In this document: positions 1,582-24,718 of the stretch, piece after piece
How positions within the stretch are numbered: position 1 is the first letter of the stretch
Layout: each line of letters opens with the position of its first letter
IMG/VR virus record: IMGVR_UViG_3300048996_000093
Location: 1 to 41,344 of that record
DNA: 41,344 nt
Reading direction: 5' to 3' (one strand)
Source of the DNA: a virus
Made by a program: the position numbers and the translations under genes
The notes under the pieces: generated by a model
What the model was told of the DNA's origin: nothing
Seen by the model: the letters and a program-made list of their open reading frames with translations, nothing else
Databases searched by the model: none

Positions 1582-1633
1582 GGGGGAAGGAAACCGACCA
1601 TTTCGGGGATGATCAGAGCAGGCGCGGGGCCTG
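1582..1633 (+). promoter_or_regulatory. Late control element, copy 1 (before terminase)
   Basis: Contains AGGCGCGGGGCCTG at 1620-1633, identical to copies at 4411 and 6348. It is preceded by GATGATCA and, about 33 nt upstream, by GGGGGAA, which resembles the GGGAAC/GGGGCAAC box of the other copies. It is the weakest of the four at the upstream boxes. The small terminase start codon follows 28 nt downstream. Probable promoter plus conserved 5' leader of the packaging transcript. Confidence 0.5.
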
Positions 1634-1661
1634 ACCACCACATGCGGGAGCCCCGACCGCC

Positions 1662-2276
1662 ATGCCACCCTCCAAAGCCCAGCAAGCCCTCACCGCCGAA
1701 CGCCGCGCCAAACTGCTGCAACTGCGCCTCGCCGGGATCTCCTTCCACGACGAACGCATCCTCGCCCTCGGGTACGAATCCCGCGGCCACGCCTCCAAAG
1801 ACCTCATCCGCGCCCTCAAGCAGCACCGCGCTGACGAAGCCGCCGCGGTCGACGTCTACCGGCAGCAGGAGAACGAACGCCTCGACGGCGAGCTCAGCCG
1901 CCTCGAGACCCTGGAAGCTGCAGCCCACAAGGTCCTCTCCAACCACCACATCGTCGTCAACAACGGCCGCGTCATCCTCCACCCCGACACCGACCAGCCC
2001 ATGGAGGACGACGCCCCCGTACTCCAGGCCATCGACCGGCTCATCAAGATCGAAGACGCCCGTCGCCGCAACGGCGAACGCCGCGCCAAACTCAACGGCC
2101 TCGACATGCCCGTGCAGACCGAACTGTCCGGCCCTGGCGGGGGAGGCGTCCCCATCGGACCGGTCGGCATTGCCGAGCTCCGCAACCTGATCCAGACCGC
2201 GGGCGACCCAGACGACCCGGCCGACAGCATCGAGGAGCAGGACGAGGACGCGGATGACGACCGCGACAACGCCTGA
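1662..2276 (+). CDS. Terminase small subunit (probable)
   Basis: A 204-residue protein starting at ATG 1662 with GGGAG upstream. The N-terminal 60 residues look like a helix-turn-helix DNA-binding region; a long charged helical segment follows (about 60-140), and the C-terminus is acidic, rich in Asp and Glu. The role comes mostly from position: it directly precedes and overlaps the large terminase by 23 bp, the usual place for the DNA-recognition subunit that selects the packaging site. No strong family signature was recognised by eye. A short Gly-rich linker lies near residues 155-165. Confidence 0.65.
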   Translation: MPPSKAQQALTAERRAKLLQLRLAGISFHDERILALGYESRGHASKDLIRALKQHRADEAAAVDVYRQQENERLDGELSRLETLEAAAHKVLSNHHIVVNNGRVILHPDTDQPMEDDAPVLQAIDRLIKIEDARRRNGERRAKLNGLDMPVQTELSGPGGGGVPIGPVGIAELRNLIQTAGDPDDPADSIEEQDEDADDDRDNA

Positions 2277-3867
2277 CGAGAACGTTCTGGGTGACGACGG
2301 CGTCGCAGACGAGGCCGCCGAACTCCTCGAGCTGGTCGCCGACTACCGTCGCCTGAACCGCGCCCAGCGCCGGCGCATCGCCCTGCAGGCCAGCCCCGAC
2401 GTCCGCACCGTGCTCGCCGGTGTCGAGCGGGACATGGCCCTGGAACGCTCCCCGGGGTCCATGTCGGCGATCCTCACTGACGGCAAGGAGATGCAGGCCC
2501 GCCACCTGGACCTGATCGACCGAGTGTTCCGGGACATCGCCCGCGGCCACTCGCGCAAGGTCCTCATCACCATGCCTCCACGTCACGGGAAATCGCGGCG
2601 TGCCGCACGGTGGGCGCCACTCTGGTTCCTGGCCCGGCACCCCGACCGCCGCGTGATGATCGCCTCCTACAGTGCGGACCTCGCCGACGACCACGGCCGG
2701 TGGATCCGCGACGCCATCAACACCTACGGCTCCCAGCTCGGCATCGCCCTGCACTCCGGGTCCAAGGCCGCCAACCGCTTCGACCTCGGCCATCCGGAGA
2801 CCGGCGAGCGCCTCGAGGGCGGCCTGGTCACCGCCGGCGTCGGAGGAGGCCTGACCGGCAAGGGCGCCCACCTCGCCATCGTCGACGACCCGATCAAAGA
2901 CGCGGCGGACGCCGAATCGCCGACCATGCGCCGCAGGCTGTGGGACTGGTGGACCTCCGTCCTCAACACCCGCGTGGAACCCGGCGGGTCGATCATCGTC
3001 ATCCAGACCAGGTGGCATGAGCAGGACCTCGCCGGACGCATCCTCGCCGGGGAAGACGCCGAGGACTGGACGATCCTCGACCTGCCCGCCCTGTGCGACT
3101 CCGAAGACGACCCCCTGGGACGGGAGATCGGTGCAGCGCTGTGGCCGCGCCGCTACGCCCGCAAAGCCCTCGCGAAGATCCGCCGCGCGGTCGGGGAACG
3201 CGTCTGGTGGTCGCTGTACATGCAAAAGCCCCGCCCCCTGGAGGGCGGTGTATGGAAGTGGCCGTGGATCATCGACAACCGTCTCACCGCCATGGCGTTC
3301 CGCGGCGTCGACCTGTCCCGCGTCGTGGTATCCGTCGACACCGCTGGCGGCGAGGGCGACACCCACGACGAAACCGGCATCACCGGAGCCGGACGCACCA
3401 CGGCGGGCGACATGTACGTCCTCGCTGATCGGTCTGCCAACATGGGCGCCGACACCTGGGGCCACGTAGCCTGCCGCCTCGCCATCGAACTCAACGCAGA
3501 TGCCTTCGTCATCGAGGACAACTTCGGCGGCGACCAAGCGTCCCAGATCATCCGGCAGGCGTGGGCGGACCTCCAGCGATCCGGCGAGGCGAAAGGCATG
3601 CTGATGCCCGCTCACATCCCGGTCCACGCCAAGAAGGGCAAGCAGCTGCGCGCCGAACCGATCGCCCAGCTCTACGCCCAGGGACTCGTACACCACGTGG
3701 GAGAGTTCCCGCGCCTAGAGGGGCAGATGGTCACCTGGATCCCAGGAATGGACTCCCCAGACCGCATGGACGCCGCCGTCCACGCGCTCACCGAGCTCGC
3801 CGACCCGGCTGCGGCCGCCGTGGGCACGTCCAATTACAGCGACCAGCGATTGGCGGGCCGCCGATGA
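2254..3867 (+). CDS. terL: Terminase large subunit
   Basis: A 537-residue packaging motor and nuclease. The ATPase part has Walker A PPRHGKS at residues 109-114 (Lys113) and Walker B LAIVDD at 207-212. The C-terminal RNase H-like nuclease begins with VVVSVDTAGGEGD, where Asp362 is the likely first metal ligand, followed by VIEDNFGGD (Glu421/Asp422) and a last acidic residue in RMDAAVHAL near residue 507. It cuts concatemeric DNA and drives it into the prohead through the portal. The ATG lies inside the end of the small-subunit gene, so translation is probably coupled. Length is normal for the family. Confidence 0.93.
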   Translation: MTTATTPDENVLGDDGVADEAAELLELVADYRRLNRAQRRRIALQASPDVRTVLAGVERDMALERSPGSMSAILTDGKEMQARHLDLIDRVFRDIARGHSRKVLITMPPRHGKSRRAARWAPLWFLARHPDRRVMIASYSADLADDHGRWIRDAINTYGSQLGIALHSGSKAANRFDLGHPETGERLEGGLVTAGVGGGLTGKGAHLAIVDDPIKDAADAESPTMRRRLWDWWTSVLNTRVEPGGSIIVIQTRWHEQDLAGRILAGEDAEDWTILDLPALCDSEDDPLGREIGAALWPRRYARKALAKIRRAVGERVWWSLYMQKPRPLEGGVWKWPWIIDNRLTAMAFRGVDLSRVVVSVDTAGGEGDTHDETGITGAGRTTAGDMYVLADRSANMGADTWGHVACRLAIELNADAFVIEDNFGGDQASQIIRQAWADLQRSGEAKGMLMPAHIPVHAKKGKQLRAEPIAQLYAQGLVHHVGEFPRLEGQMVTWIPGMDSPDRMDAAVHALTELADPAAAAVGTSNYSDQRLAGRR

Positions 3868-3875
3868 AACCACCG

Positions 3876-3904
3876 TGCGAATCTGTCAGATTGCGAATCT
3901 GTCA
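3876..3904. repeat. Tandem direct repeat of TGCGAATCTGTCA
   Basis: Two exact 13-bp copies at 3876-3888 and 3892-3904 with a 16-bp period, 8 bp after the large terminase stop. AT content is higher than the surroundings. A protein-binding site (operator or packaging signal) is possible; the sequence itself does not tell which. Confidence 0.6.
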
Positions 3905-4007
3905 CTGAAATTGGTGGCGTGAGCGTCAAAGTAGAGACTCCGCAAAACCAAATCCCTACAGTGGCGGTTGGAACAGCGTGGACACGAGATTTGCAAGCCC
4001 ACGCACA

Positions 4008-4040
4008 GCGGCGGCCCGGCCTGGAGGGCCGGACCGCCGC
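4008..4040. terminator. GC-rich hairpin terminator after terminase
   Basis: Arms 4008-4021 and 4027-4040 form a 14-bp stem with one mismatch and a 5-nt loop. It would stop the terminase transcript and also a minus-strand transcript coming from 4301-4074, so it is probably bidirectional. The gap 3868-4441 (574 bp) otherwise holds the tandem repeat, a possible minus-strand gene and the portal promoter element. Confidence 0.7.
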
Positions 4041-4073
4041 AACACAGTGATCAGCCGTCGTGCTGGCAGCCGG

Positions 4074-4301
4074 TCATCGGTAGAGGAACTCGAGCAACTC
4101 CAGCTCTAACTGGAGGAGCGCCACTACCAACGACCAGAACAGCCAGTCCGGCGGCTCTTCATTTGGATCCACGGATCGTTCTCCTGATGCTGTCGTCTTC
4201 CGGCTGGCTTGCCGGGGAACCGCTTGCCGGCCCTCGAGGAGCCGACAGGCCACGCAGGTGAACACGCCGTGGGGATCGACTGTATGGCCGACCGAGGGCA
4301 A
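4074..4301 (-). CDS. Possible small membrane protein (moron candidate)
   Basis: A possible 75-residue protein read from a TTG at 4301 with GGAGG four bases upstream. Codon third positions are mostly G/C from the start to the middle of the frame and poorer upstream, which is why I start here. It has a CVAC motif near residue 15 and a hydrophobic segment near the C-terminus (about residues 52-72, Trp/Leu/Val-rich). It points away from the portal promoter and ends at the 4008-4040 hairpin, so it would be a self-contained unit inserted between terminase and portal. No family recognised; it may be non-coding. Confidence 0.33.
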   Translation of the reverse strand: MPSVGHTVDPHGVFTCVACRLLEGRQAVPRQASRKTTASGERSVDPNEEPPDWLFWSLVVALLQLELELLEFLYR

Positions 4302-4373
4302 CTCACCTCCGCTCCCCTGAAGTTCAACCCATAGAGGGAACCATGCGCCGACCGGGCAGGAATGACTTGCGCT

Positions 4374-4424
4374 GGGAACCTTTTCTGCTTGCCCCTCTAC
4401 TCTGATCACTAGGCGCGGGGCCTG
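4374..4424 (+). promoter_or_regulatory. Late control element, copy 2 (before portal)
   Basis: GGGAACC at 4374-4380, then TCTAC at 4396, then TGATCACT and AGGCGCGGGGCCTG at 4411-4424. AAC to TCTA spacing is 16 nt and AAC to AGGCG is 34 nt, the same as in copy 4. The AAC-containing -35 is reminiscent of ECF-type sigma factor promoters; this is inference. The portal GTG start follows 17 nt after the element, with GGGAAGGA as ribosome-binding site. Confidence 0.6.
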
Positions 4425-4441
4425 AAGCGGGAAGGATCGCT

Positions 4442-6325
4442 GTGGGCCTCAAGAACGTCCTGGTCGACGGCTGGAGCTGGCTGAACTTCAAGCCCTTGTT
4501 CAGCGACCAGCTGGGCATGCCACACCGCCGTGCCTTCCCCGAGGCGTACGCCACGTGGGTCCCGGACGCTGATGCGCGCCGCCTGGCCGCCTACAAGCTG
4601 CTCGCCGCCTACGACAACAACCAGGCCGGCGAGCTCGCCGAACTCCGCGACGGCGAAGCAGCCCGTGAGCGGCGGGAGTTCGGGGACCCGTCCATGTTCG
4701 TCGACACGCTCGTCTCCCACGTGCTGGGCCGCGACCAGCAGATCACCGTGCCGGGTGCCGAGAAGTCCGGCACCGAAGACGCGGACGGCAATGCGGCGAT
4801 GGCCGAACGCATCCAGGACCTGTTGCGCGAGTGGGCGGATGAGGAACTCCTGCCGATGCGCCTCCTGCAGGGGGAGCGGAAGGCCGTCGGGCTGGGGGAC
4901 GGCGTGTATCTCCTGTACTGGGACGGCGACAAGCAGCGTGCCCGCATCCAGGCCTTCGACCCCGGCCTCTACTTCCCCGTCATCGACGAAGACTCCGACG
5001 GGTCGGACTTCCCCGACCGGGTGCACTTCGCGTGGGAGCTGCTCGAGGACCCCAAGCGCGGTCTGAAGAAGCGGTTGCGGCGCATCACCTACGAGCTGGA
5101 CTGGATCGGCCCGGCCACCGCCAACGGCGTGGACCGTGAGGGGCGCGCCGTGCGGGCCGCCGTCCTTTCCGAGCCGACCGACGAGGCGCCCGCGCAGCCC
5201 GTCCTGGGCCGCGGCGACCAGCTCGATGCGAACGGCTCCATCACCCGCATGTACGCGTGGAGTGAGCAGCCCTCCTACAAGACCTGCTACCTCACCGACG
5301 CCACCTGGGAACTCGGCGACCTCAAGGGCCCCGTCGACGTCGACTCACTGCCCATGGACAAGGCACGCTTCGCCACCAACGACCAGGGCGAAATCCTGCA
5401 CCGCCTGGACCTGTACCAGGACTATGTGGCGGTCGTGCACGTCCCCAACACGGTGCCGTCCGCCGGCGAACACTGGGGGCAGTCCTCCCTGGCGAAGCCG
5501 CTGCAGGTGTTCGATGAACTCGCCGGCGCGGACACGGATGCGGCGCGCGCCTCGGCGACGACCGGCCAGCCGATGATCGCCATCTCCGGTGTCGCCGATC
5601 CGCGCCAGCAGTACCAGGTCGGGCCCGGCGTCGTCTTCATCCTGGGGGAGAACGGCCGCATCACCGCCGTCGACACCAGCCCCGCCCTGGCCGAGCTGCG
5701 CGAGCACCGCCACGACCTCGCGGAGCGGGCCGCGAACACCGCTCGGCTGCCCGCCGTGTCGCTGGGCACCATGGACCCCTCCAAGGTGCCCTCCGGGTAC
5801 GCGCTCGAACTGTCCCTGGGCCCGCTGGACTCCCTGATCTCCGGGATGCGCCTGGCGCGCGACCACGCCGACCGGCTCATCCCCAAATTTGTGCAGCGGC
5901 TGTTCCTGGCCGGGCAGCATCCCGACTGGGCGGGTATCACCCCGCTGCCCGCGAAGATCCAGCGCGGCCCGTACACGCCGACCGACAAGGCCGCCGTCCT
6001 CACCGAGGTCACCACCGCCTACCAGGCGAAGGTCCTCTCCCTGGAGACGGCCCTGCGGATGCTGCAGGACGCGGGATGGCCCATTGACGACGCGGAGAAG
6101 GAGATCGAGCTGATCCAGTCCCGTGCGTTCGAGGACGCCCGGCTGCTGGCCGACGCCCTCGGCAACGTCGATGAGGTCGCCGACTTCCTGGGCCGCGAAG
6201 CCCCTGAAGAGCCCGACCCGCCCGCCGTGCAGCTCCCCGGCGATCAGCCGCTCGAGGACCCGACCGCGCTGCCGCCGAACGCCGACCCGCAGCAGGTGCG
6301 GGGGAGCGGGGGCAACACTCCGTGA
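4442..6325 (+). CDS. Portal protein (SPP1 gp6-like)
   Basis: A 627-residue protein starting at GTG 4442. It would form the dodecameric channel at one capsid vertex through which DNA enters and to which the tail connectors attach. Length, position right after the terminase and the overall alpha/beta pattern with a long helical C-terminal half fit the SPP1 gp6-like portal family common in actinophages. The last 45 residues are Pro- and Asp-rich and probably disordered. The final codons contain the upstream box of the next late control element, so portal coding and regulation overlap. Confidence 0.85.
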   Translation: MGLKNVLVDGWSWLNFKPLFSDQLGMPHRRAFPEAYATWVPDADARRLAAYKLLAAYDNNQAGELAELRDGEAARERREFGDPSMFVDTLVSHVLGRDQQITVPGAEKSGTEDADGNAAMAERIQDLLREWADEELLPMRLLQGERKAVGLGDGVYLLYWDGDKQRARIQAFDPGLYFPVIDEDSDGSDFPDRVHFAWELLEDPKRGLKKRLRRITYELDWIGPATANGVDREGRAVRAAVLSEPTDEAPAQPVLGRGDQLDANGSITRMYAWSEQPSYKTCYLTDATWELGDLKGPVDVDSLPMDKARFATNDQGEILHRLDLYQDYVAVVHVPNTVPSAGEHWGQSSLAKPLQVFDELAGADTDAARASATTGQPMIAISGVADPRQQYQVGPGVVFILGENGRITAVDTSPALAELREHRHDLAERAANTARLPAVSLGTMDPSKVPSGYALELSLGPLDSLISGMRLARDHADRLIPKFVQRLFLAGQHPDWAGITPLPAKIQRGPYTPTDKAAVLTEVTTAYQAKVLSLETALRMLQDAGWPIDDAEKEIELIQSRAFEDARLLADALGNVDEVADFLGREAPEEPDPPAVQLPGDQPLEDPTALPPNADPQQVRGSGGNTP

Positions 6326-6361
6326 TTCGTGTGCTGAACTTGGATCTAGGCGCGGGGCCTG
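6304..6361 (+). promoter_or_regulatory. Late control element, copy 3 (before scaffold)
   Basis: GAGCGGGGGCAACAC at 6304-6318 is identical to the box at 24670-24684. In both sites the distance to AGGCG is 44 nt (6348 here). AGGCGCGGGGCCTG (6348-6361) is identical to copies 1 and 2. The TCTA box is replaced by GCTG. The upstream half lies in the end of the portal gene. Confidence 0.55.
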
Positions 6362-6387
6362 GACAGTCCATGGGAGGACTACCGCTC

Positions 6388-7275
6388 ATGCGTCGCCCCG
6401 CGCAGCACCACCCCCGTATCGCCGCCGCCCGCACGGACACCGGTTGGGTCCACCCCTACACCGGCCTGCCGGGCATCGCGGTGTTCTACAACGACGGCGG
6501 ACAGCCCCCCGCCGCGCCTGCGCCCACCCCGGCCGACATAGCGGCCCGCGCGGGACAACAGCCCCCTGCCGTGCCCGCAGTGCAGCCGCCCGCGCCGGTC
6601 CTGCCCGGCGACCCCGCCAGCGGCAGCGACGAGGAGAAGGTCACCTTCACCCAGCGCCGCCTCAACGTCATCATGAAGGACGAGAAGGAAGAGGGACGCC
6701 GCGCCGCCTACCGCTCCATCGCGGAAGCCGCCGGCGTCGACCCCGACTCCTTCGACCCGGCCAAGTTTGGCGACATGGTCAAGCAGGCCGAGGCGGCCCG
6801 CCAGCAGCAGCTGTCCGACGAGCAGCGGCGCACCGAGGAACTAGCCCGGCAGGCCCAGGCCGTCCAGGCCGACCAGGCCAAGGTGGAGACGGAGCGCGCC
6901 GCCATCGCCGTCGAACGCCGTACCCTCGCCCGCGAGCAGGCCCTCACCCGCCTCGGCGCCCTCGACATCCTCGACGAACAGGGCCAGGTCACCGCCCCGA
7001 ACCTGCAGGACGCGCTCGCCATGCTGGAGCGGGACCTGCGCGAGACACCCGACGCGGACACGGCGGCCCTCACGGCCGCCGCGGACGCGCTGAAGAAGCG
7101 CCGCCCGGAACTCTTCGGCACCCCGGCCGCCCCCCAGACTCTGCCGCCCGCACCCTCCGGCGCACCCGCGGCGGGCAACGCACCGCGCCAGCCCGCACCC
7201 GGCAAGGACACCGTCAAGGCCGAAGCACGGGCCATGGCCGAACGGATGGGACTGCGCGCCCGCCCCGCCGCCTGA
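6388..7275 (+). CDS. Scaffold-like capsid assembly protein
   Basis: A 295-residue protein. ATG 6388 is chosen because GGAGG lies 10 nt upstream and the conserved AGGCGCGGGGCCTG leader ends before it; a GTG at 6322 would put that leader inside the coding region. Residues about 25-80 are Pro/Ala-rich and disordered, 80-215 are a charged coiled coil with many Glu, Arg and Gln, and the tail is Pro/Ala-rich ending in a basic helix. Composition and position between portal and capsid fit an internal scaffolding protein that shapes the prohead and is later lost. No protease was recognised nearby. Confidence 0.72.
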   Translation: MRRPAQHHPRIAAARTDTGWVHPYTGLPGIAVFYNDGGQPPAAPAPTPADIAARAGQQPPAVPAVQPPAPVLPGDPASGSDEEKVTFTQRRLNVIMKDEKEEGRRAAYRSIAEAAGVDPDSFDPAKFGDMVKQAEAARQQQLSDEQRRTEELARQAQAVQADQAKVETERAAIAVERRTLAREQALTRLGALDILDEQGQVTAPNLQDALAMLERDLRETPDADTAALTAAADALKKRRPELFGTPAAPQTLPPAPSGAPAAGNAPRQPAPGKDTVKAEARAMAERMGLRARPAA

Positions 7276-7380
7276 CCAACAGACCAGCACCACCGAGGGA
7301 CCACGCCCTGACCCCCGTGGACGGCCCCCCATCTGGGGCCCTCACCACACATTCCGCGTACTCCGCGAAAGGGGCACGGC

Positions 7381-8115
7381 GTGGACATCCAGCCGTACAC
7401 CAGCACCGAGACGCTTGCCGTCGGCCGTCCCTGGCTGATGAGCACGCTCGGCATCGAGACCAACCAGACCATCACCCTCGACCTCACGGCGTTCTCCGAG
7501 ACGCTGCACTGGACCGAGGCCTCCGCCTACCAGCCCGAGCGGAAGCTCAAGTCGGGTATCCCGCTGGGCAAGAACACCGCCACCGGCCTGTTCGAGCCGT
7601 ACGCGGCCGTCACCAACGAGGTCCAGACCCTGACGGTGACGGGCGGCCCCACCGGCGGCACGTTCACCATCACCTGGTCCGGGCAGACCACCGCAGCCCT
7701 GGCCTACAACGCGACCGCCGCGCAGGTGCAGGCGGCGCTGGTGGCGCTGTCCAACATCGCCGTCGGGGACGTCGTCGTCACCGGCAACGCGGGCGGCCCC
7801 TGGACACTCACCTGGGGCGGCAGCCAGCTCGGCGAGGACGTCGCCGCACCCACCACCACCGAGACGTTCACCGGCGGCACCACACCGGACATCACCATCG
7901 CCACCACCACCGCGGGCGGCGCCGCCACCGGATCCGACGGCTCGCAGATCCTCGCCGGGTTCCTGTTCACCGAGGTGTCCTTCTACCCCGGCTCCACCAA
8001 GTGCGCCGCGCCGCTCATGGTCCACGGGCAGATCGACCCGGCGAAGCTGCCGGTCGCCTTCGACCCGACGGATGCACCGGCCGGCTCCAACACCCAGTTC
8101 GTCTACAAGGTCTGA
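7381..8115 (+). CDS. Head decoration protein with inserted Ig-like domain
   Basis: A 244-residue protein starting at GTG 7381 with GAAAGGGG upstream. Residues 1-75 and about 183-244 resemble lambda gpD-type decoration proteins (IPLGKNTATGLFEPY, then SDGSQILAGFLF), which cement the capsid surface. Between them, residues 80-182 form a Thr/Gly-rich beta domain with TVTGGPTGGTFTITW and YNATAAQVQAAL, a repeat type seen in some phage capsid and surface proteins. The insert probably projects from the capsid and may bind carbohydrate or host surface (inference). It lies 13 bp before the capsid gene. Confidence 0.75.
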   Translation: MDIQPYTSTETLAVGRPWLMSTLGIETNQTITLDLTAFSETLHWTEASAYQPERKLKSGIPLGKNTATGLFEPYAAVTNEVQTLTVTGGPTGGTFTITWSGQTTAALAYNATAAQVQAALVALSNIAVGDVVVTGNAGGPWTLTWGGSQLGEDVAAPTTTETFTGGTTPDITIATTTAGGAATGSDGSQILAGFLFTEVSFYPGSTKCAAPLMVHGQIDPAKLPVAFDPTDAPAGSNTQFVYKV

Positions 8116-8128
8116 GAGGGGACCACCC

Positions 8129-9193
8129 ATGCCTAACGACATGCTTGAGGCCCTCCTCCGGGACATCACGCCGACGGCCATCAACGCCTTCGTGCGCGAG
8201 ATCCAGACCCCGGCGGACTACCTCCTCACCCAGTCCGTGATCCCCGAGCGCACGGTCGACTCCGTGAAGTGGGAGTCGCGCTCCACCAGCCGCAGGGTCG
8301 CCGCGGCGACGTACCGCGCCTGGGACGCTCAGACCGCGGTCGCCACCCGCGAGGTCACCGAGCTTGCCCGTGAGGGAAAGCTCCTGCCCCTGGGCCAGAA
8401 GTACATCGTCGGGGAACTCGAGACGATCCTGCAGAACGTCTCCCGCGGCATGAAGGGCGACGCCCTCGTCACCGCGATCTACCAGGATGTTGCCGCGCAC
8501 GTCCTGTCCGTCAAGCACCGCATGGAGCTCGCCGCAGGCGACCTCCTCACCGACGGAAAGTTCACCCTGACCAACGAGAACGGCCTCTCCGTCGAGGCCG
8601 ACCACCAGGTGCCTGCGGCGAACATGCCGAGCGCGCCGACCGCGTGGACCGACCCCACCGCCGACATGCTCGGTGACGAGATGCGCTGGATCGAGGTACT
8701 GCGCTCCTCCGGCGCCCCGATGCCCGAGCGAGCCGTGACGTCCTACAAGGGCATGTCGCTGGCCATGGCCAACGACTCCTACCGGGCCGCGTACTACGGC
8801 AGTGTGAACTCCGCATCCACCATCCCCACCGCGGTCCTCGCGCCGAACGAGGTGAACGTCGTGCGGGCCCGCTACGGGTTGCCGCCGATCATCCCCTACG
8901 ACGTGAAGATCCCGCTGGCGGACGGCACCAACCCCCGCGTGCTGCCCGAGAACAAGTTCTTCCTGCTGCCGCCCAACCCGGCGCAGTGGGCAGAGACCCA
9001 GTACGGGCTGACCGCGGAGGGACTGGCCCTGTCGACCGGCTCCAACCCGGCCATCGAGCTGGAAGAGGCGCCGGGCATCATCTGCACCCGCGGCTACGAC
9101 GACGACCCGGTCCGCGTATGGACCAAGGTCGCCGCCGCCGCGATGCCGGTGATGTACACCCCGGACATCCACATCGCTGCGACGGTGTGGTGA
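8129..9193 (+). CDS. Major capsid protein (lambda gpE-like)
   Basis: A 354-residue protein from ATG 8129, preceded by GAGAGGGGA; an upstream in-frame ATG falls inside the decoration gene and is less likely. Size, order (scaffold, decoration, capsid) and motifs such as RRVAAATYRAWDAQT and the C-terminal YDDDPVRVWTKVAAAAMP fit the phage major capsid protein E family of the HK97 fold. It would build the icosahedral shell around the scaffold. Confidence 0.88.
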   Translation: MPNDMLEALLRDITPTAINAFVREIQTPADYLLTQSVIPERTVDSVKWESRSTSRRVAAATYRAWDAQTAVATREVTELAREGKLLPLGQKYIVGELETILQNVSRGMKGDALVTAIYQDVAAHVLSVKHRMELAAGDLLTDGKFTLTNENGLSVEADHQVPAANMPSAPTAWTDPTADMLGDEMRWIEVLRSSGAPMPERAVTSYKGMSLAMANDSYRAAYYGSVNSASTIPTAVLAPNEVNVVRARYGLPPIIPYDVKIPLADGTNPRVLPENKFFLLPPNPAQWAETQYGLTAEGLALSTGSNPAIELEEAPGIICTRGYDDDPVRVWTKVAAAAMPVMYTPDIHIAATVW

Positions 9194-9196
9194 GCC

Positions 9197-9541
9197 ATGG
9201 CTCAGCTCGCGAGCACGGTGTACGTCAAGGACCCCAAGACTCATCAGACGGTGGAACTGGCGGCGGGCTCCAGCCCGGAGAACCGTCTGGCCGCCCTGGT
9301 GACCAACCCGGCCGCCTGGGTCGACGGGAAGCTTCCCCGCCTGCCCAAGGCGCAGACCGAGGAGCAGGGCGGGCAGCAAAGCCTTACCGGCGACGGCCCG
9401 GACGGCGACTCTGGCGACGCCTCGGCCACCACCTCCGACGGCGCTGACCCCGCCACCCCCGAACCGGCCGCGAAGAAGACCGCGGCCCGCAAGCCGGCCC
9501 GGGGCCGGACCGCCGCTGACGAGGGCACCAGCGGCGACTAG
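9197..9541 (+). CDS. Small capsid-linked protein, unknown role
   Basis: A 114-residue protein starting 3 bp after the capsid stop, so translation is coupled. The first 55 residues look folded (VYVKDPKTHQTVELAAG); the rest is Gln/Asp/Ala-rich and ends in a Lys/Ala/Arg-rich tail, likely disordered. Similar small proteins follow the capsid gene in many actinophages; the function is not known to me. A hairpin 6 bp downstream should reduce read-through. Confidence 0.65.
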   Translation: MAQLASTVYVKDPKTHQTVELAAGSSPENRLAALVTNPAAWVDGKLPRLPKAQTEEQGGQQSLTGDGPDGDSGDASATTSDGADPATPEPAAKKTAARKPARGRTAADEGTSGD

Positions 9542-9547
9542 AAGCGC

Positions 9548-9595
9548 GTGCGGGCCCGCCTTTTGTGGTGGGGGCGCCACCCGGCGGGCCCGCAC
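9548..9595 (+). terminator. Hairpin after capsid genes
   Basis: Exact 13-bp arms at 9548-9560 and 9583-9595 with a 22-nt loop that can itself pair GTGG with CCAC. It probably lowers transcription of the connector genes relative to capsid protein. Confidence 0.7.
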
Positions 9596-9634
9596 CCGCA
9601 CCCCTTCCCACCTTCGACTCCCACGGAGGCCCCA

Positions 9635-9928: not shown

Positions 9929-9931
9929 GCC

Positions 9932-12815: not shown

Positions 12816-12906
12816 CCCCTGGTCAGGCAGTATCACCGCACCGCGGCGGGACCCCACGCGGACGCCACCCCCAGCAGGTGGCCGCCACACACCACCACGT
12901 GTAGCA

Positions 12907-12944: not shown

Positions 12945-12951
12945 ACATCTC

Positions 12952-13425: not shown

Positions 13426-13476
13426 GCCGTCCGGCCACCCACCCCCTCATGCCCCCGGCCGGGCCCCGGCGAATCT

Positions 13477-13510: not shown

Positions 13511-13522
13511 ACGGAGACCCAC

Positions 13523-14418: not shown

Positions 14419-14436
14419 CCGGAAGGGAGGCCACGC

Positions 14437-17400: not shown

Positions 17401-18720
17401 CAGCATGTCGCGCAGATCGCCCAGCCCACCTACCGCATGTGGGCCGAACCCGAGACGGGCGGCGAGGCGTACATCCCCTTCGCGCCCTCCAAGCGGCCAC
17501 GGAGCCGTGCGATCGCCGAGGAGACCGTGCGCCGCCTGGGCGGTGACCCCCAGACCATCCAGTGGAACGCGGAAGGCTCCGTCACCGACTGGCGCTATGA
17601 CCCCCAGTCCGGGTCCCTGTACTCGCCCTCCGACGCCGGGTCGGCCGGCAACAAGACGCGGAAGGTGAAGACCAAGGTCAAGGGCAAGTGGGTGACCAAG
17701 GAGGTCGAGTATTTCGACATCGGCGCCGTGGAGAAGAAGCTCAAGTCGGCGGCGAAGGCCACCCAGGCGTGGAACAAGGACTTGGAGCGGGTGGCCGACC
17801 GGGTCGGTGGGGACGTCGCCGAAGCCCTGGCCTCCATGGGCAAGGAAGGTCAGAAGTTGGCCGACAAAATGGCCAACGGCTCCACCAAGTACATCAACCA
17901 GATGGCCAAGGCGCTGCGTGACCTGCAGAAGACCGCCAAGGCCAGCCTCACGGACTACACCCGGCAGTTGGGCTCCGCGAACAAGTTGAACAAGGAGTTC
18001 AGCGACGACCTCGCAACGCTGGCCGCGCGCGGATACGGGGACCTCGCCAAGCAGCTGGCGGCGCAGAACGACAAGGCGGCGCAGGAACTGGCCGCAGCCG
18101 CGGTGAAGGACAAGGGCAAGGCGTCGGCGGCAAACAAGGCCGCGAAGACCGCCAACAACGCGCTCACCAGCGACCAGGTCGAGCAACTCGTCTCGATCAT
18201 CGCGGCCATCACCAAGCCCACCACCGGCATCCACGACGTCGCCGCGAGCACCGGACTCGGCGAGGACGAGATCGTCGCCACCGCCACCAAGGCCTCCAGC
18301 CAGATCAAGAACGCGTTGGGCTCCCGCTCGAGCCGCTTCCTTGCCGACCTGGCCAAGGCGCAGAAGGGCCTCGCCTTCGCCAACGGCGGTATCCGCCCCG
18401 GCATCTACTCCACCGCCAACGGCGCCGTCACCTTCGCCGAACCCTCCACCGGCGGGGAGGCGTACATCCCCCTCGGACAGGACAAGCGCCGCCACGCCAT
18501 GCCCGTCCTGTCCGACGTCGCCGGGCGCTTCGGGATGGGTTTGCGCGACGCCTCCGAGGGCCGGGTCATCATCATCCGCCAGCCCGGCCCGCTGGTCGGC
18601 AACCAGACGTGGCACGTCACCTCCGGCGGCTCCGCCGCCGACACCGCGCGGCAGATCGACGCGGACAACGGATACCAGCTGCGGCGCCTGGCGCGCGGCG
18701 GAGTGGGAGCACGCGGATGA
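14437..18720 (+). CDS. Tape measure protein
   Basis: A 1427-residue protein from GTG 14437 with GGGAGG upstream. It sets tail length and enters the host with the DNA. Residues about 55-205 hold five or six diverged repeats of about 28 residues (VDGTHLRRDVQRAV, VDGTRLRAQVRNAL and others). Hydrophobic segments lie around 223-268 and in 460-570. Long helical regions follow. TGGEAYIP occurs twice, near residues 1007 and 1338, each after a Phe-Ala-(Asn/Glu)-Gly-Gly turn, so a domain has been duplicated; a Lys/Ala-rich coiled coil lies between the copies. No muramidase or transglycosylase motif was recognised. Confidence 0.92.
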   Translation: MSQWNLSVRLTGQGSNLSSMLRSTAGDARTASRAVNTLRSDIRRLRAEASRPIRLRLAVDGTHLRRDVQRAVSGAGRQAITIPLGVDGTRLRAQVRNALRTASAGSGIQIPLRVDANGLRAEVRRALSGASGQALSVDLRLGDAMQLRRDVQAAVRWAAQGHRITIPIGLADPMQLRRDVAAAVRWASMNHTIRIPVVPDTSALRNIPTPSLSGGSGGGGANFGLAGFIPFATAAIPLAAGLASTLAPVAGMFTAAAGGAAAFGIALAGQIGPLSEAAEAEKAYQDAIAEHGRSSTEAAEASLAYQRKLSALPPETQKAAVALSTLKTEFGDWSDEMSDFTMEPVAKGFTIMQKLLPSLSPEVESFSGQLDRLMNVAGGAISTPGFDAFSGKVADLTDQKLDSFTDQVIHLLRVASEGDAGGGALGQILDYVRQNGPAARDALDAVGQAVGVVAEGAADAGPGMLTLVTAVARLAGALPPELVGLLIQIAAGIKLVQLAAAGSAAAAGALTRVSLAIQTMGARAVGAGGGLRGVGAAIGGLSSGAKAGLAAAGIIAIGLALHELSDQKPVIAVNALSTSLNTLVSTGKVTGALKTNMDEMSESIAMVSKTASDNKLLKLTSDFGSWIGIADGPGISDAIKNVEAWDQVMADNVRNGHPKEAAAQFDLLRRAWKAGGGDMGQFKQHTDGYRNALADMKFEQDATKESMGTFGQAALDAGTKLAAQKADADALRQSLIALNETNRAAHDAETQFEASLDALSESFKKNGATLNAHTEAGRANRTAMSAAAKSQDELIASGLAAGNSFDSMVGKSESLRTSMMKLATDAFDGNTAKARTYVNTLLGTPKEVKTLIKVERENAISGLQEVRSAIQATPGAKSVKVSTLNAAAIAALEKVGYKTRTLPNGQTEVYTANGQAIGSIGAVSTALNNLNGKTANTYTVHTTVYKIKGRPGGPPSGSYMGSTAGRSADGNLYGPARVQRFAEGGMGEQHVAQIAQPTYRMWAEPETGGEAYIPFAPSKRPRSRAIAEETVRRLGGDPQTIQWNAEGSVTDWRYDPQSGSLYSPSDAGSAGNKTRKVKTKVKGKWVTKEVEYFDIGAVEKKLKSAAKATQAWNKDLERVADRVGGDVAEALASMGKEGQKLADKMANGSTKYINQMAKALRDLQKTAKASLTDYTRQLGSANKLNKEFSDDLATLAARGYGDLAKQLAAQNDKAAQELAAAAVKDKGKASAANKAAKTANNALTSDQVEQLVSIIAAITKPTTGIHDVAASTGLGEDEIVATATKASSQIKNALGSRSSRFLADLAKAQKGLAFANGGIRPGIYSTANGAVTFAEPSTGGEAYIPLGQDKRRHAMPVLSDVAGRFGMGLRDASEGRVIIIRQPGPLVGNQTWHVTSGGSAADTARQIDADNGYQLRRLARGGVGARG
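14599..15051 (+). repeat. Coding repeats in tape measure N-terminus
   Basis: Five full units and one partial unit of about 84 bp encode the strand-helix pattern of a beta strand ending in VDGT or LGDAM, then LRRDVQ-type helix. Units 4 and 5 are closest: MQLRRDVQAAVRWA versus MQLRRDVAAAVRWA. Repeats are diverged at DNA level. Confidence 0.75.
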
Positions 18721-19613
18721 GTACTCCCGTCGAACTCGTCGACTATCAGCACCAGCTGGGCCCGGTGCTGATCGGGCGCGGCACGTCCATCACCATCCGC
18801 GCCATTGAGGGCCTGGGGCAGGTCGCCCCGCGTACTACGGATGTAGAGCCGCCCGGCGAGGACGGACTGTGGCTGGGCCCCGACTACTACGGCGGCCGCA
18901 CCGTGCGCATCGACGCGGCGGTGAAGAACCCCGGGAACTCCAGCGCGGTCCTGGACACCCTGGCGCTGCTGCAGGACGCCTCCGACACCGCTGCGGTGCG
19001 CGGGCAGGCGGGCACCACCCTGGCGCTGCGCTTGAAGTTCCCAGGTCGGCCGACCCGGGTCGTGCACGGACGGCTGCGCAAGTTTGAGCCGGACCTGGTC
19101 ACGTTGAAGCACGGCTATGCGCCCGTCGACCTCGAGTTCCAGACCGCCGACCACCTCTACTACGACGACGAATCCCAGTCCACGTCGATGCCGCTCGGCT
19201 CGCTGACCGAGGGCGGGATGACCTTCCCGCTGCAGTTTCCCTTCACCATCGCCGGTGATCCCTCGGCGATCGGCCGTCCCGGCTACCTCGAGGTCGGTGG
19301 GACACGGGAGACGTGGCCGGTGATCCGGGTGTCCGGGCCGTGCGCGAATCCCACCATCACGCACGTCACGACCGGCCGGTCGCTGACGGTGCTGACGACG
19401 CTCGCCGCAGGGGAGTGGGTGGAGATCGACACCCGGCCGGGCTGGCGGACCGTGCTGCGCGAGAACGGAGGCGGCGCCCCCCTCGCCCCCGCCTCTCGCA
19501 TCGACCAGTTCGTCCTGACCCCCGGGCTGAACGAGATCCGGTGGACCGCCACCGACAACACCCTCACGTCCACGCTGGCCGTCACCTGGTGGCCCGCCTA
19601 CAAGGCCCTGTAG
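18717..19613 (+). CDS. Distal tail protein (Dit-like)
   Basis: A 298-residue protein from ATG 18717, overlapping the tape measure stop by 4 bp. LGPVLIGRGTSITIRAIEG at the N-terminus, an RTVRIDAAVKN strand, GYAPVDLEFQTADHLYY in the middle and a C-terminal galectin-like beta part (VLTPGLNEIRWTATDN) fit the siphovirus distal tail family. It forms the hub joining tail tube and tip. Confidence 0.8.
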   Translation: MSTPVELVDYQHQLGPVLIGRGTSITIRAIEGLGQVAPRTTDVEPPGEDGLWLGPDYYGGRTVRIDAAVKNPGNSSAVLDTLALLQDASDTAAVRGQAGTTLALRLKFPGRPTRVVHGRLRKFEPDLVTLKHGYAPVDLEFQTADHLYYDDESQSTSMPLGSLTEGGMTFPLQFPFTIAGDPSAIGRPGYLEVGGTRETWPVIRVSGPCANPTITHVTTGRSLTVLTTLAAGEWVEIDTRPGWRTVLRENGGGAPLAPASRIDQFVLTPGLNEIRWTATDNTLTSTLAVTWWPAYKAL

Positions 19614-19624
19614 GAGGCCGCACG

Positions 19625-20575
19625 ATGGCACTGAACGGCATCCCGATCGCCACCACCGGCGGGGAGCACACGGCCCAGCAGTTCCGCATGATGATCAAAG
19701 ACTTGGCGCGGGACAATCAGGGCGTCACCACCGGCCTCGACCTGAAGGTGTCGGCCCTGTCGACGCCGGGCGCCGGAGTGCAGGTCTCCGACGGGTCCGC
19801 GGTCATCGCCGGGAAGGTCTCCACGGTCCAGGGCTACTACTCCGCCTACAACATCGGCTCCGACACCGTCGCCATCGCCGCGACGGGCGGCTCCCCGCGC
19901 TCGGACATGCTGGTGATGCGGGTGGAGGATCCCGACTACGAGGGCACCCGCGACCCGGCCACCGACGACATCGTCTTCTGGGAAGTCGTCCCCAACGTCA
20001 GCTCCAGCGCGACGACCGTGCCCTCCGGCTACAGTGCGATCCCGCTGGCCCGCATCGACATCCCCGCCTCCACCGCCACCATCACCAGCGCCATGGTCAA
20101 GGACCTGCGGAAGGTCGCCACACCGCGCCGCGAGCGGATCCTCTACCCGTACTACCCGGCCGACCCGCTGGTGGAAATCTCCGGCACCTCGGAGACGTGG
20201 AAGACGCACCCCAACCTGACGATGGCCACCATTGCGATCCCCAACTGGGCGGCCACCGCGAAGGTCGTCTTCTCCGTGTCGAACCTGCGTCTCGCCGACG
20301 GGAACGTCTGGGGCGGCTTCCGCTTCATGCTCGGCACCGAAGAGGCCGCGCAGTGGGTCGGTATCGACGACAACCAGGGCTCGGCGGCCCGCCGCACCTA
20401 CGTGGAAATGGTCGAGACGATCGACCTGACCACGACCGCCGGCGCGGCGATGCGCGGCACGAACCAGGCGTTCAAGTCCCGCATGCGGACCCGTTCCTCC
20501 AACGCCGGGAAGATCGGCGTGGACGCAGTGTCGACGTTCAAGATCGACGTGGAGTTCCTTGAGGGCGCGCTGTAG
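19625..20575 (+). CDS. Minor tail protein
   Basis: A 316-residue protein from ATG 19625 with AGGAGG upstream; the longer frame upstream overlaps Dit coding and is rejected. The N-terminal 150 residues (DGSAVIAGKVSTVQGYYSAYN) resemble the receptor-side minor tail proteins found next to Dit in Streptomyces phages; the C-terminal half is a beta sandwich. It may be part of the tail tip or attach a fibre. Its stop codon directly abuts the next ATG. Confidence 0.65.
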   Translation: MALNGIPIATTGGEHTAQQFRMMIKDLARDNQGVTTGLDLKVSALSTPGAGVQVSDGSAVIAGKVSTVQGYYSAYNIGSDTVAIAATGGSPRSDMLVMRVEDPDYEGTRDPATDDIVFWEVVPNVSSSATTVPSGYSAIPLARIDIPASTATITSAMVKDLRKVATPRRERILYPYYPADPLVEISGTSETWKTHPNLTMATIAIPNWAATAKVVFSVSNLRLADGNVWGGFRFMLGTEEAAQWVGIDDNQGSAARRTYVEMVETIDLTTTAGAAMRGTNQAFKSRMRTRSSNAGKIGVDAVSTFKIDVEFLEGAL

Positions 20576-21667
20576 ATGGGCCGCTGGCGCTACTTCACCC
20601 AGGATCCCCTGACCGGGGAAGTGCTGCACTCGGCGCTGCCCCTGTCGGGGGTGGAGTTCGGCAACGAGTTGAACGGGCCGGGGAGCTTTTCGGCGACGCT
20701 TGCTCCGCGCTGGGCTGCCGCGAACATCGACGCGCTCATGCCAGGCCTGCTCATCTACGCCGAAGCGGATGGGTTCCTGCGCTGGGGCGGCCTCATCTGG
20801 GACACCACCCCCGAAGGCGGCGTCGTCAAGCTGGAGGCGGCCGGCTGGTCCTCCTACCTGATCAAACGCCACGACCACCACGGCGAGCTCCGCGGGAGGG
20901 CTCCGTACACGAACCAGGACCCGTGCGTCATCATCCGCGACATCTGGGCGTACGCGCAGGAGCAGCCCGACGGCAACCTCGGCGTCGTCGTGGACGCCAC
21001 CTCCTCGTCCGCGAAGGCGGGCACCCTCGAGGAGCCCTGGCACTCCTACTGGTACGAAGCCCCGCAGCTCGCCGACATGGTCGACGACCTGGTCTCCGAG
21101 ACGGGCGCCCCGCAGTACACCAACGCCTGCAACTACCAGGCCAACGGAACCATCCGCCGCCGCCTCGTCCTGGGCTACCCGCGCCTGGGCGCACGCCGTA
21201 AGGACATCTCCTTCACGTCGGGCGTCAACGTGGTCTCCGCCCCGCCGGTGGGCTACTCCGGCGACGACTACGCCAACGTCATCATTGCCACCGGGTCGGG
21301 GGAGGGCACCGCACGCCGCTTCGCCGTCGACCCCGTACGTGACGGGCGGCTGCGCATGGAGTCCGTGCTGGCGCTGCCCACTGTGAACGGCAACGACGTC
21401 CTCGGGCGGCGGGCCGCCGCAGAGCGGAAGCGCCGTCAGATCATGGGCGACGTCACCCAGATCACCGTCCGGGACCATCCCACCGCGCCCCTCGGCTCCT
21501 GGCAGATCGGTGACGACGTGACCGTGGCCGTACACACGCAGTGGGTGTCCTTCACCGGCTGGGCGCGCATCACCGCCGACTCCTACAAGCCCGGCGACAA
21601 CCCCGACCAGGCCACCCTCACCCTGGCGCGCGCCGACTCCTTCCACTACGGCTCGGAGGCATCCTGA
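20576..21667 (+). CDS. Tail-tip hub protein (gp44/Tal-like)
   Basis: A 363-residue protein. LSGVEFGNELNGPGSFSATL, ADGFLRWGGLIWDTTP and the C-terminal DDVTVAVHTQW with RITADSYKPGD are characteristic of the tail-associated hub proteins that follow Dit in actinophages and form the baseplate base. It is immediately adjacent to the gene before and 2 bp from the fibre gene. Confidence 0.75.
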   Translation: MGRWRYFTQDPLTGEVLHSALPLSGVEFGNELNGPGSFSATLAPRWAAANIDALMPGLLIYAEADGFLRWGGLIWDTTPEGGVVKLEAAGWSSYLIKRHDHHGELRGRAPYTNQDPCVIIRDIWAYAQEQPDGNLGVVVDATSSSAKAGTLEEPWHSYWYEAPQLADMVDDLVSETGAPQYTNACNYQANGTIRRRLVLGYPRLGARRKDISFTSGVNVVSAPPVGYSGDDYANVIIATGSGEGTARRFAVDPVRDGRLRMESVLALPTVNGNDVLGRRAAAERKRRQIMGDVTQITVRDHPTAPLGSWQIGDDVTVAVHTQWVSFTGWARITADSYKPGDNPDQATLTLARADSFHYGSEAS

Positions 21668-21669
21668 CC

Positions 21670-24354
21670 ATGGCCAACTCCCTGCCAGGCGAAATCGTCC
21701 GCCTGCAGCGCCAGCTCGCGCAGGTCGAGAAGGGTTCCCGTGTCGCGCACGGCGCATCGGTCGAAGACGCTGCGATCCTCGTCAACGACGGGGCCGGCAG
21801 CATCCGCACCATCGTCGGCCTCCAAGGCGACGGCACGGTCGGCGTCCAGGCCGTCAACGGCCCGCCCCCGCCCGAACCGTCCGCGCCCATCGTGGCGTCC
21901 GTCATCGGCGGGGTAAGCGCCGCCTGGGACGGCCTCTTCGCCAACGGCGCGATCATCCCCATGGACTGGAACCGCGTCGAAGTCCACGCCTCCATCCTCG
22001 CCGTCTACGAGCCAATCCCAGCAACGCTCGTTACGACGATCGAAACGGCGCAGGGCGGCACCGTCATCGTCCCGTGCGACACCCCCGTCTACGTGCGCCT
22101 GGTGGCCCGCACCGCCTCCGGCACCCCGTCCGTCGCCTCCGCCACGGTGGGCCCGCTCGGCCCGTCCCCGGTCGTCGCCAACGACATCCTCGACGGCATC
22201 GTCACCACGGTGAAGCTCGCGGACGACGCAGTGACGTCAGCGAAGGTCGCCGCCGCCGCGATCGACGCGGACGCCCTGGCCAACTCGGCTGTCACCGCAG
22301 CGAAGATCGGCGCGAACGCCGTCATCCTCGGGAAGATCGCGTCCGGGGCCGTCAACCTCAACACCCTCACCGGGCCGCTGTCCGACCTGGCAACCCAGCG
22401 CTACGCCGACTACTTCCGCGACCCCACCATCTGGGCCAAGCTGTCCGGCTCCGGCACCTTCCTCATCAACCCGGACGCCACCGGCACCCCGTCCGGCGGG
22501 GGCATCCTCACCGCGACCGGAGACACCCAACTCGCCGGTACCACCCTCATCCCGCAGGACACCGACACCCTGTACCGCGTCATGATCCGGGTACGGGCCA
22601 CCGCGCAGGACCCCTCCGGGCCAGCCACCATCTACGTCGGCCTGGTGGGCGTCGCCGACGACGGCACGACCCTGGTCAACCGCGCGGGCGCCAACGCGAC
22701 GTCCATGCACTACTACTGCTGCACCAACGGCGGCAGCGTCGCCACCGCCGACGGGTGGAAGGTGTACGTCGGCTACGTGCAGGGCCACTCCGGCGTCGGG
22801 GTGACCGCACCGGCCGGCCCGAACACCGACCCCCGCGCGCCCGGCACCACCCACGCCGATGTCCGCTACCTGCGCCCCACCGCCTGGCTGAACTTCGGCA
22901 AAACCACCGCCGCCGTGATGGAGGTGGAGGCGTTCACGGTGGACCCGCTGCGCACCGGCGTCGTGAACTCCACCAACCTCGTCACCGGATCGGTGACCGC
23001 GGCCGCCATCGCCACGGACGCGGTCACGGCCGGGAAGGTGGCGGCAGACGCCATCACGGCACGCGAGATCACGGCAGGCTCCATCAACACCGCCGAACTC
23101 GCCGCGGGAGCGGTGACGGCAACGACGATCGCCGCCGACGCCGTCACGGCAGGGAAGATCGCAGCGTCGCAGATCGCGGCGGTGCACATGACGGCCAGCT
23201 CGATTGAAACGGCGTCGATCGCAGCAGAGGCCGTCAACGCCGGGAAGATCGCAGCGGGGGCAGTCACCACCGCGAAGCTCGATGCGCTCGCGGTGACCGC
23301 CGACAAGATCGCAGCCAACGCGATCGTGGCCGGGAAGATCCAGGCCGGGGCCGTGGACGCCGCAGCGATCGCGGCAGACGCCATCACCGGCAAGACGATC
23401 ACCGGCGGCACCATCACCGGCTCGCTGCTGCAGACCGCGACCTCCGGGGAACGTGTCACGATCAACGAGTCGGGCGCCAACAAGCTGCTCGTCTACAACA
23501 GTGCCGGCGTCGCCATCGGTGAACTCTCCGACCGCGGGCTGATTCTGGAAGGCGACTCCGGCGCCCTGCTCTACATGGACCCCGACGGCCCTTACCCCAA
23601 CATCCGCCTGACGAACGCCGCGAAGACCAACCCAGCCGTCATCAACGTCGTGGAGATCCCCACCGGGGCCGCCAACCTCGGCCTGAACAGCGGCGGCTTC
23701 ACCGGCAGTGGCTTCACCGACATGAAGTGGCGGACGTTCTTCGGTCAGGACTTCTGGGTCGCTGAACGCATTCGCGACTCCGCCAACGCCACCGCCGTCG
23801 GCGGCCGCATCTTCTTGGACGACGACTCCGCCTCCATCGGCTACATCGACACCACCCTCAGCACGATTTCCGACGTCGTCATCACCGCAGGGCAGGTCAA
23901 GGCGAGCGCCAAGGTCGTGGTGCAGCCCTTCGTCGGTGACACCAGCAGCACTCTCTTCGTGCAGCCCGGCCCCGGCCACACCGGCTACATGATCCGCTGC
24001 TGGGACCCGGACGCTTCCCAGTACAAATTCACCGTCGACCAGGCAGGAAACACCCTGGTCAAGGGGACGTTGACGGCCGGGAACATTGTCACGGGCAGTG
24101 TCACGATCACGCCGTCGGCCGCGCATACCCCCACCAGCACCCTCATCTCGTTCGCGTGCACCGGCACCACATTCCGCGGCTACGCGTCCGCCAACACCAC
24201 CGTGCCCGGCTCCCGGATCAACGCCTCACCGACCCCCGGCTCCGGCGTCACCGGCGTCTCCATGTCCTCCGTGACCGCCACCAGCGCACTGGTGTGGGTC
24301 ACCCGTGAAAACACGACCGCGACGATCGTCAACTGGATGGTGGTTGGATCATGA
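21670..24354 (+). CDS. Tail fibre / receptor-binding protein with low-complexity repeats
   Basis: An 894-residue protein from ATG 21670; an in-frame ATG at 21541 is inside the previous gene. An N-terminal attachment part (LPGEIVRLQRQLAQVEKG) is followed by a fibronectin-like region. Ala/Thr-rich repeats such as AAKIGANAV appear first around residues 168-230 and densely around 434-587 (AADAVTAGKIAAS and variants). Between them is a beta-rich region with a WKVYVGYVQGHSGVGV motif, possibly a carbohydrate-binding domain. The last 300 residues look like a receptor-binding beta head. The repeats probably form a trimeric shaft. Confidence 0.8.
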   Translation: MANSLPGEIVRLQRQLAQVEKGSRVAHGASVEDAAILVNDGAGSIRTIVGLQGDGTVGVQAVNGPPPPEPSAPIVASVIGGVSAAWDGLFANGAIIPMDWNRVEVHASILAVYEPIPATLVTTIETAQGGTVIVPCDTPVYVRLVARTASGTPSVASATVGPLGPSPVVANDILDGIVTTVKLADDAVTSAKVAAAAIDADALANSAVTAAKIGANAVILGKIASGAVNLNTLTGPLSDLATQRYADYFRDPTIWAKLSGSGTFLINPDATGTPSGGGILTATGDTQLAGTTLIPQDTDTLYRVMIRVRATAQDPSGPATIYVGLVGVADDGTTLVNRAGANATSMHYYCCTNGGSVATADGWKVYVGYVQGHSGVGVTAPAGPNTDPRAPGTTHADVRYLRPTAWLNFGKTTAAVMEVEAFTVDPLRTGVVNSTNLVTGSVTAAAIATDAVTAGKVAADAITAREITAGSINTAELAAGAVTATTIAADAVTAGKIAASQIAAVHMTASSIETASIAAEAVNAGKIAAGAVTTAKLDALAVTADKIAANAIVAGKIQAGAVDAAAIAADAITGKTITGGTITGSLLQTATSGERVTINESGANKLLVYNSAGVAIGELSDRGLILEGDSGALLYMDPDGPYPNIRLTNAAKTNPAVINVVEIPTGAANLGLNSGGFTGSGFTDMKWRTFFGQDFWVAERIRDSANATAVGGRIFLDDDSASIGYIDTTLSTISDVVITAGQVKASAKVVVQPFVGDTSSTLFVQPGPGHTGYMIRCWDPDASQYKFTVDQAGNTLVKGTLTAGNIVTGSVTITPSAAHTPTSTLISFACTGTTFRGYASANTTVPGSRINASPTPGSGVTGVSMSSVTATSALVWVTRENTTATIVNWMVVGS
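22970..23430 (+). repeat. Short coding repeats of fibre shaft
   Basis: About a dozen diverged units of 10-12 residues around GKIAA or TTIAADAV, alternating Ala/Val/Ile with small polar residues. The DNA shows repeated GACGCCGTCACGGC-like and GGGAAGATCGCAGC-like blocks, which could allow recombination and length change. Confidence 0.7.
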
Positions 24355-24662
24355 GTGAAGAGCAGCAGCCCGCACAGACCGACAGCACCGACCCTGAGCC
24401 CGAGCCGGAACCCGAGCCCACTCCGCCCGTACCGGTCGGAGACACCCTCACCTGGGAGCCGCAGACCTGGTACTCCATCACCTACGCCTGCCGCACCGTC
24501 GGATGCCGCTACGAGAACCACGTCGGATCGGCTCCGATGTTCTACTCCAACAACGGTGACCCCAAGTACATCCGGGTCAACTGCTCCTCGGACGACGGCT
24601 GCGGCAAGGACTCCGTGATCCTCACCGCCGACAAGCTCGACCCGCAGCCCATCCAGGAATGA
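24351..24662 (+). CDS. Small cysteine-containing protein after the fibre gene
   Basis: A 103-residue protein overlapping the fibre stop by 4 bp. Residues 10-30 are Pro/Glu repeats and disordered. The rest has four Cys in two groups, CRTVGC and CSSDDGC, consistent with a zinc site. It may be a fibre chaperone or tip accessory by position; not recognised. Confidence 0.62.
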   Translation: MSEEQQPAQTDSTDPEPEPEPEPTPPVPVGDTLTWEPQTWYSITYACRTVGCRYENHVGSAPMFYSNNGDPKYIRVNCSSDDGCGKDSVILTADKLDPQPIQE

Positions 24663-24669
24663 GCCGCGT

Positions 24670-24718
24670 GAGCGGGGGCAACACCTTCCCCGCCACGCTC
24701 TAACCTGATCACGAGGCG
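24670..24718 (+). promoter_or_regulatory. Late control element, copy 4 (lysis operon)
   Basis: GAGCGGGGGCAACAC at 24670-24684, TCTAAC at 24699, CTGATCAC and AGGCG at 24714. Spacings equal those of copies 2 and 3 (AAC to AGGCG 34 nt; AAC to TCTA 16 nt). The downstream AGGCG lacks the CGGGGCCTG extension, but GGGCGCGGGG occurs later in the leader at 24787. It precedes the protease-endolysin-holin group by about 100 nt. Confidence 0.6.

Follow-up and report, generated by a model that had tools for sequence, protein, structure and literature searches.

The late-gene block and its four sites

The IMG/VR virus record analysed here (the window) runs to 41,344 bases, and sequence comparison shows this 41-kb fragment to be a relative of the Streptomyces phage-plasmid ZL12. 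The portals share 65% identity, and ZL12 (90,435 bp) is the sole close relative, as well as the sole isolated one, found in the phage collection searched. Genes of the window could be assigned to a small terminase (weakly), a large terminase, portal, scaffold, major head protein, tape measure, peptidase and endolysin. Sites built around a repeated element occur in this late block, all on the same strand, before the terminase, portal, scaffold and peptidase/endolysin genes, and alignment placed them in four classes: T (terminase), P (portal), S (scaffold) and L (peptidase/lysis). Their parts, and a regulator gene discussed below, are:

1582..1589, + strand: box of site T, GGGGGAAG, 5' of the putative small-terminase gene and 18 nt before the hexamer in the -10 position, as in relatives
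1608..1613, + strand: hexamer in the -10 position of site T, GATGAT (28 of the 31 relatives whose box was scored have GATCAT)
1620..1633, + strand: leader element of site T, AGGCGCGGGGCCTG; gene start at 1662
4374..4379, + strand: box of site P, GGGAAC, 5' of the portal gene
4398..4403, + strand: -10 of site P, TACTCT (TANNNT in every one of 27 portal leaders from an unselected set)
4411..4424, + strand: leader element of site P, AGGCGCGGGGCCTG; portal start GTG at 4442
6308..6316, + strand: box of site S, GGGGGCAAC, 5' of the scaffold gene and overlapping the 3' end of the portal gene
6335..6340, + strand: hexamer in the -10 position of site S, TGAACT (T..NCT in relatives, TANACT in chromosomal prophages)
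6348..6361, + strand: leader element of site S, AGGCGCGGGGCCTG; scaffold start probably ATG at 6388
24674..24682, + strand: box of site L, GGGGGCAAC, 5' of the protease/endolysin genes
24701..24706, + strand: -10 of site L, TAACCT
24711..24821, + strand: structured leader RNA of site L (covariation; model R1; no Rfam match)
24714-24729, 24720-24724 with 24744-24748, and 24751-24766: parts of the L leader, namely P1, CCCTC opposite GAGGG, and P3
24788..24796, + strand: second copy of the GGCGCGGGG core, within the L leader and near the protease ribosome-binding site
24817..25638, + strand: peptidase-like gene under predicted control of site L (PHROG peptidase family; alignment A1)
40569..41342, + strand: WhiB-like transcription regulator gene, a candidate activator, running to the right end of the window

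A previous, sequence-only reading of this DNA had reported the 14-mer AGGCGCGGGGCCTG as exact at 1620, 4411 and 6348, and it occurs nowhere else in the window; the three copies compare with 0.01 expected, and none of 100 dinucleotide shuffles reached three. It had also reported GAGCGGGGGCAACAC at 6304 and 24670, each 44 nt 5' of AGGCG, and GGGAACC at 4374. Both were confirmed, the former at those two positions only within the window, and AAC lies 34 nt from AGGCG at three sites. The first site, for which that reading gave no box, has one as well, 33 nt before AGGCG. Two of its proposals held in part. TCTAC (4396) and TCTAA (24699) lie where they were described, but when the sites are phased on the box, the hexamer least variable among relatives is not TCTA at 16 nt; it starts 18 nt after the box. 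The site at 24714, taken to be related to the other three, has the promoter in common with them but not the leader, as its AGGCG opens a different structured leader of about 110 nt. Scanning for the motif with three mismatches returned 27 matches against 25 expected, and was uninformative at this G+C content (69%).

Two stretches beside these sites may be mentioned. About 500 bp between the large terminase and portal genes (3868-4373) are apparently non-coding and carry the repeated GCGAATCTGTCA. Directly 5' of site T lies a strong inverted repeat, GAACGGCCCCGCC...GGCGGGGCCGTTC (1519-1563), which looks like a terminator insulating the late block.

Conservation of the module across relatives and hosts

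Portal searches yielded 43, later 80, viral loci and nine genome loci; these relatives are phylogenetically non-independent, and the window itself is incomplete. About 100 relatives carry the same module 5' of small-terminase, portal and scaffold genes, in the order GGGG(G/C)AAC-like box, 18 nt, -10 hexamer, 5–9 nt, GGCG(C/T)GGGG. The sites keep their position, order and strand in dozens of relatives, in which the flanking intergenic DNA is otherwise poorly conserved. In 60 of 68 portal sites, 18 nt separate the box from the hexamer, TANNNT having been a filter both here and in the leader-hairpin counts given below, so that neither tests it independently. At T, P and S alike a hexamer peculiar to the class recurs 18 nt past the box: TACCCT, TACTCT or TACGCT in class P and T..NCT in class S. 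Copies scattered through coding sequence, which had been named in advance as evidence against a control function, are not seen in 13 large relatives. Boxed sites in these genomes are essentially confined to positions 5' of late genes, and the few degenerate core or looser-box matches elsewhere are chance-like, without the full arrangement.

All boxed sites found in viral contigs sit in ZL12 relatives. IMG/VR scans by AGGCGCGGGGCCTG alone, or by GATC plus core, gave mostly chance matches, the real ones being box or -10 matches in ZL12 relatives only. A relative was present in 30 of the 395 Streptomyces-family genomes searched, several of these relatives lying inside long chromosomal contigs. 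A composite of box and leader gave two matches in 150 Streptomyces genomes (one T-type phage site and one apparent chance match), as did the reversed control, while a composite of -10 and leader, searched in 41 genomes, gave 12 matches, of which at least seven are phage-like; its reversed control gave about 40. In these composite scans the module was not found in Streptomyces chromosomes outside phage sites. The earlier claim of phage-family-specific late control sites, each with a -35-like box, a -10 and a start or leader, is supported at this level by conservation across relatives.

The box is the less widely shared part. Among unselected whole-genome relatives GGCG(C/T)GGGG is present in 27 of 30 portal leaders, mostly without a box, and TANNNT lies 5–10 nt before the core in all 27. 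More distant chromosomal prophages likewise keep TANNNT and GGCGYGGGG before the portal gene and lack the box; at the scaffold gene, chromosomal prophages carry TANACT-GATCA-GGCGCGGGGGCG. Since boxless relatives keep both elements, we conclude that a principal-sigma-like -10 plus leader probably formed the ancestral core, the box being a clade-specific gain. In the window's clade P and L have TANNNT, but it occupies the -10 position in none of 33 T sites and in two of 35 S sites, so one common sigma factor is not proven. If recruitment is supplied by the box, the T and S hexamers of the boxed clade would be expected to drift away from TANNNT. Two T-type sites are present in one relative (L127:3331 and L127:6870), which suggests that further genes can acquire the module.

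A structured leader before the lysis genes

The leader of about 110 nt that follows site L is present at 44 of 46 peptidase (protease) loci. It comprises P1 (GGGYG/CRCCC), whose loop ACCCUC could pair with an invariant GAGGG; P3, which covaries; and a CCCCG/CGGGG helix in which the core copy takes part. This copy lies about 74 nt past the inferred start. P1 and P3 together have 21 double-changed cells in 23 sequences; none of 500 shuffles reached their covariation score, and slid controls collapse. On this covariation the L leader is a conserved structured RNA whose helices P1 and P3 are kept by compensatory changes. The putative CCCUC/GAGGG pairing never varies; the leader probably forms a pseudoknot, and may sequester the protease ribosome-binding site.

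A search of Rfam returned no match to the L leader at or above the gathering score of any family. The model built from it (R1) finds one strong copy in 12 of 14 records, the window included, always before the peptidase gene; a thirteenth record gives a weak partial match and one chromosomal prophage a shortened form. In 61 Streptomyces genomes R1 found a single copy, in a genome that also carries other sites of the family.

How the sites may be read

The reading preferred here, to which a probability of about 0.6 can be attached, is that these are late promoters at which the host principal sigma factor recognises the -10, an activator binds the box, and the leader acts after initiation, with a folded leader in the case of L. 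Each site would start a late transcription unit. The -10, a TANNNT at P and L and a weaker match at T and S, would be read by host RNA polymerase carrying the principal sigma factor, and transcription is predicted to start on or close to the A of AGGCG. In place of an ordinary -35, the box would offer a contact to an activator, for which a phage WhiB-like protein is the most plausible candidate, and because of this the sites should be silent until that regulator is made. The leader would form the first nucleotides of the late mRNAs and act on elongation, stability or translation, and in the lysis unit the same promoter would give rise to the longer folded leader, probably controlling access to the protease ribosome-binding site. 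Streptomyces coelicolor promoters have the -10 consensus TANNNT, the -35 consensus NTGACC and a usual leader length of 30–39 nt (PMC4895711). HrdB-type promoters of this kind, in which the -10 stands some 7 nt ahead of the start, share with the sites TANNNT at P, L and in the wider family, and a similar leader length. They differ in the -35, NTGACC being replaced by GGGG(G/C)AAC in the window's clade and by no clear -35 in the rest, in the lack of TANNNT at T and S in that clade, and in the conserved, presumably transcribed element that the sites add.

The sequence-only reading had remarked that the window holds no sigma factor but left the WhiB-like gene unmentioned. Its product scores 23.4 bits with the Pfam Whib model, just under the cut-off of 23.6, and matches PHROG WhiB families, and the four cysteines of the family are visible in the sequence. 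It also has a C-terminal helix-turn-helix-like part, and most large relatives carry two WhiB-like genes. WhiB-type proteins work with the principal sigma factor at sites with a poor -35. Promoters activated by them, or by sigma appropriation, resemble the present sites in that the -10 is of the primary-sigma type while the -35 departs from the consensus and depends on a regulator, but here the evidence is co-occurrence only. All 12 large boxed relatives have WhiB-like genes, as does one of 20 boxless prophage regions, an association confounded by phage type, and suggestive only, because the prophages were scanned over about 40 kb and the two groups differ in lifestyle.

An extension of the preferred reading, less likely than not, is that the late genes form an RNA-level regulon. 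GGCGYGGGG, as a transcribed motif of all late leaders, would be read after initiation by a common factor, a pseudoknotted lysis leader would delay translation of protease and endolysin, and timing would be set by the box activator together with the leader code.

An alternative is that the sites are read by a sigma-E-type ECF factor of the host, or by a phage sigma factor that has escaped recognition, through a -35 GGGAAC, 16 nt and a -10 CGTA. Late expression would then be coupled to envelope stress or to a sigma factor of the phage's own. Sigma-E targets of S. coelicolor have the -35 GGAAC or GGGAAC and the -10 CGTC, as in GGGAACGTTCCTCACTCCGCCAT-CGTCTA (PMC6767563). The GGGAAC and GGCAAC boxes contain or resemble this -35, as the comparison with ECF promoters in the sequence-only reading had implied; box and hexamer are rigidly phased, and CGTA starts 16 nt past AAC in P and many L sites. 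In other respects the likeness breaks down. CGTC is not found 16–17 nt past the -35; P and L have CGTA or CTCTA there, T and S have different sequences, so that two of the four classes have neither CGTC nor CGTA. Boxless relatives of the wider family keep TANNNT, the composite element is absent from host chromosomes, and the conserved leader has no counterpart in sigma-E promoters. A search for Sigma70_r2 in 20 viral and phage records including ZL12 matched none, though a very divergent sigma factor could escape it, and the search for a phage sigma factor gave only weak region-4-like helix-turn-helix matches. ZL12 gene 7c (L173:3856-4245), annotated as an RNA polymerase sigma-H factor, has no Pfam match and is probably misannotated. 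An ECF sigma factor may be involved but does not have to be invoked, and we regard this explanation as unlikely.

As a DNA operator, the leader element GGCGYGGGG would be bound across the start by a phage or host protein that represses or activates the late promoters. Consistent with this, a near-palindromic 13-mer overlaps the inferred start, the element is restricted to the phage family, and a WYL-domain regulator is conserved there. After TANNNT, however, the element occurs 49 times in sense orientation and once in antisense, and the outer positions of the symmetry are not kept. An RNA role is favoured because the distance from core to -10 varies between 5 and 9 nt at portal sites and because the core recurs deep in the L leader; the operator is an unlikely explanation. 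A short hairpin, AGGC-GCGGG-GCCT, could form in the leader. Its G-C core is invariant, while its outer pair is A-T, C-G or sometimes G-C, but also T-T and many mismatches; in the TANNNT-filtered set 80.5% of outer pairs are paired, and 6 of 500 shuffles were as high, which lends the hairpin weak support.

The start-associated sequences (SAS) of mycobacteriophages, to which the leader had also been likened, lie 3–7 bp before the start codon and contain the ribosome-binding AGGAG (PMC3203893). The leader shares with the SAS/ESAS of cluster K mycobacteriophages the character of a short, non-palindromic phage repeat with symmetric outer bases, found in one orientation at gene starts and rare in hosts (PMC3203893). 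The likeness fails on position and content: in the window the leader lies 31–42 nt from the start codon, the ribosome-binding sequence is separate, and late genes follow it, whereas SAS belong to the non-structural half (PMC3203893).

It could also be supposed that the leader is a clamp, preventing translation of the mRNA that carries it by pairing with the region of the ribosome-binding site or the start codon. Single-sequence folds do pair the core with near-start sequence at T, P and S of the window, and duplexes between leader and start are unusually strong at S sites, of which 19 of 33 rank within the top 5% of control gene starts. Compared with other gene starts, T is only moderately above and P hardly so; the paired segments do not covary, and the partner at S is coding sequence that may be kept for the protein. 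Such pairing is not supported as a general rule, and the clamp is decidedly unlikely. That the repeats merely mark module boundaries kept by inter-phage recombination, as their recurrence at gene-block borders in a mosaic phage family might suggest, is very improbable, because rigid phasing, compensatory changes in the L leader and class-specific -10 hexamers call for functional constraint, and a coding sequence runs into one of the sites.

Little is known about how actinobacterial phages control their late genes, and an open-access search found no literature on late promoters of Streptomyces phages and phiC31. Under the preferred reading of activated principal-sigma promoters, the sites would constitute a compact late regulon across Streptomyces phage-plasmids and chromosomal prophages, with a candidate WhiB-like activator. 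The covarying leader RNA before the lysis genes is newly recognised, and shared leaders together with a folded lysis RNA point to an undescribed timing of virus assembly and cell bursting. If true, this reading would explain how temperate elements keep their structural and lysis genes silent, and would supply inducible parts for Streptomyces. The WYL-domain regulator mentioned above is encoded in the window at 36454-36852 (- strand), is conserved in 13 of 14 records and is a candidate lysogeny or immunity regulator.
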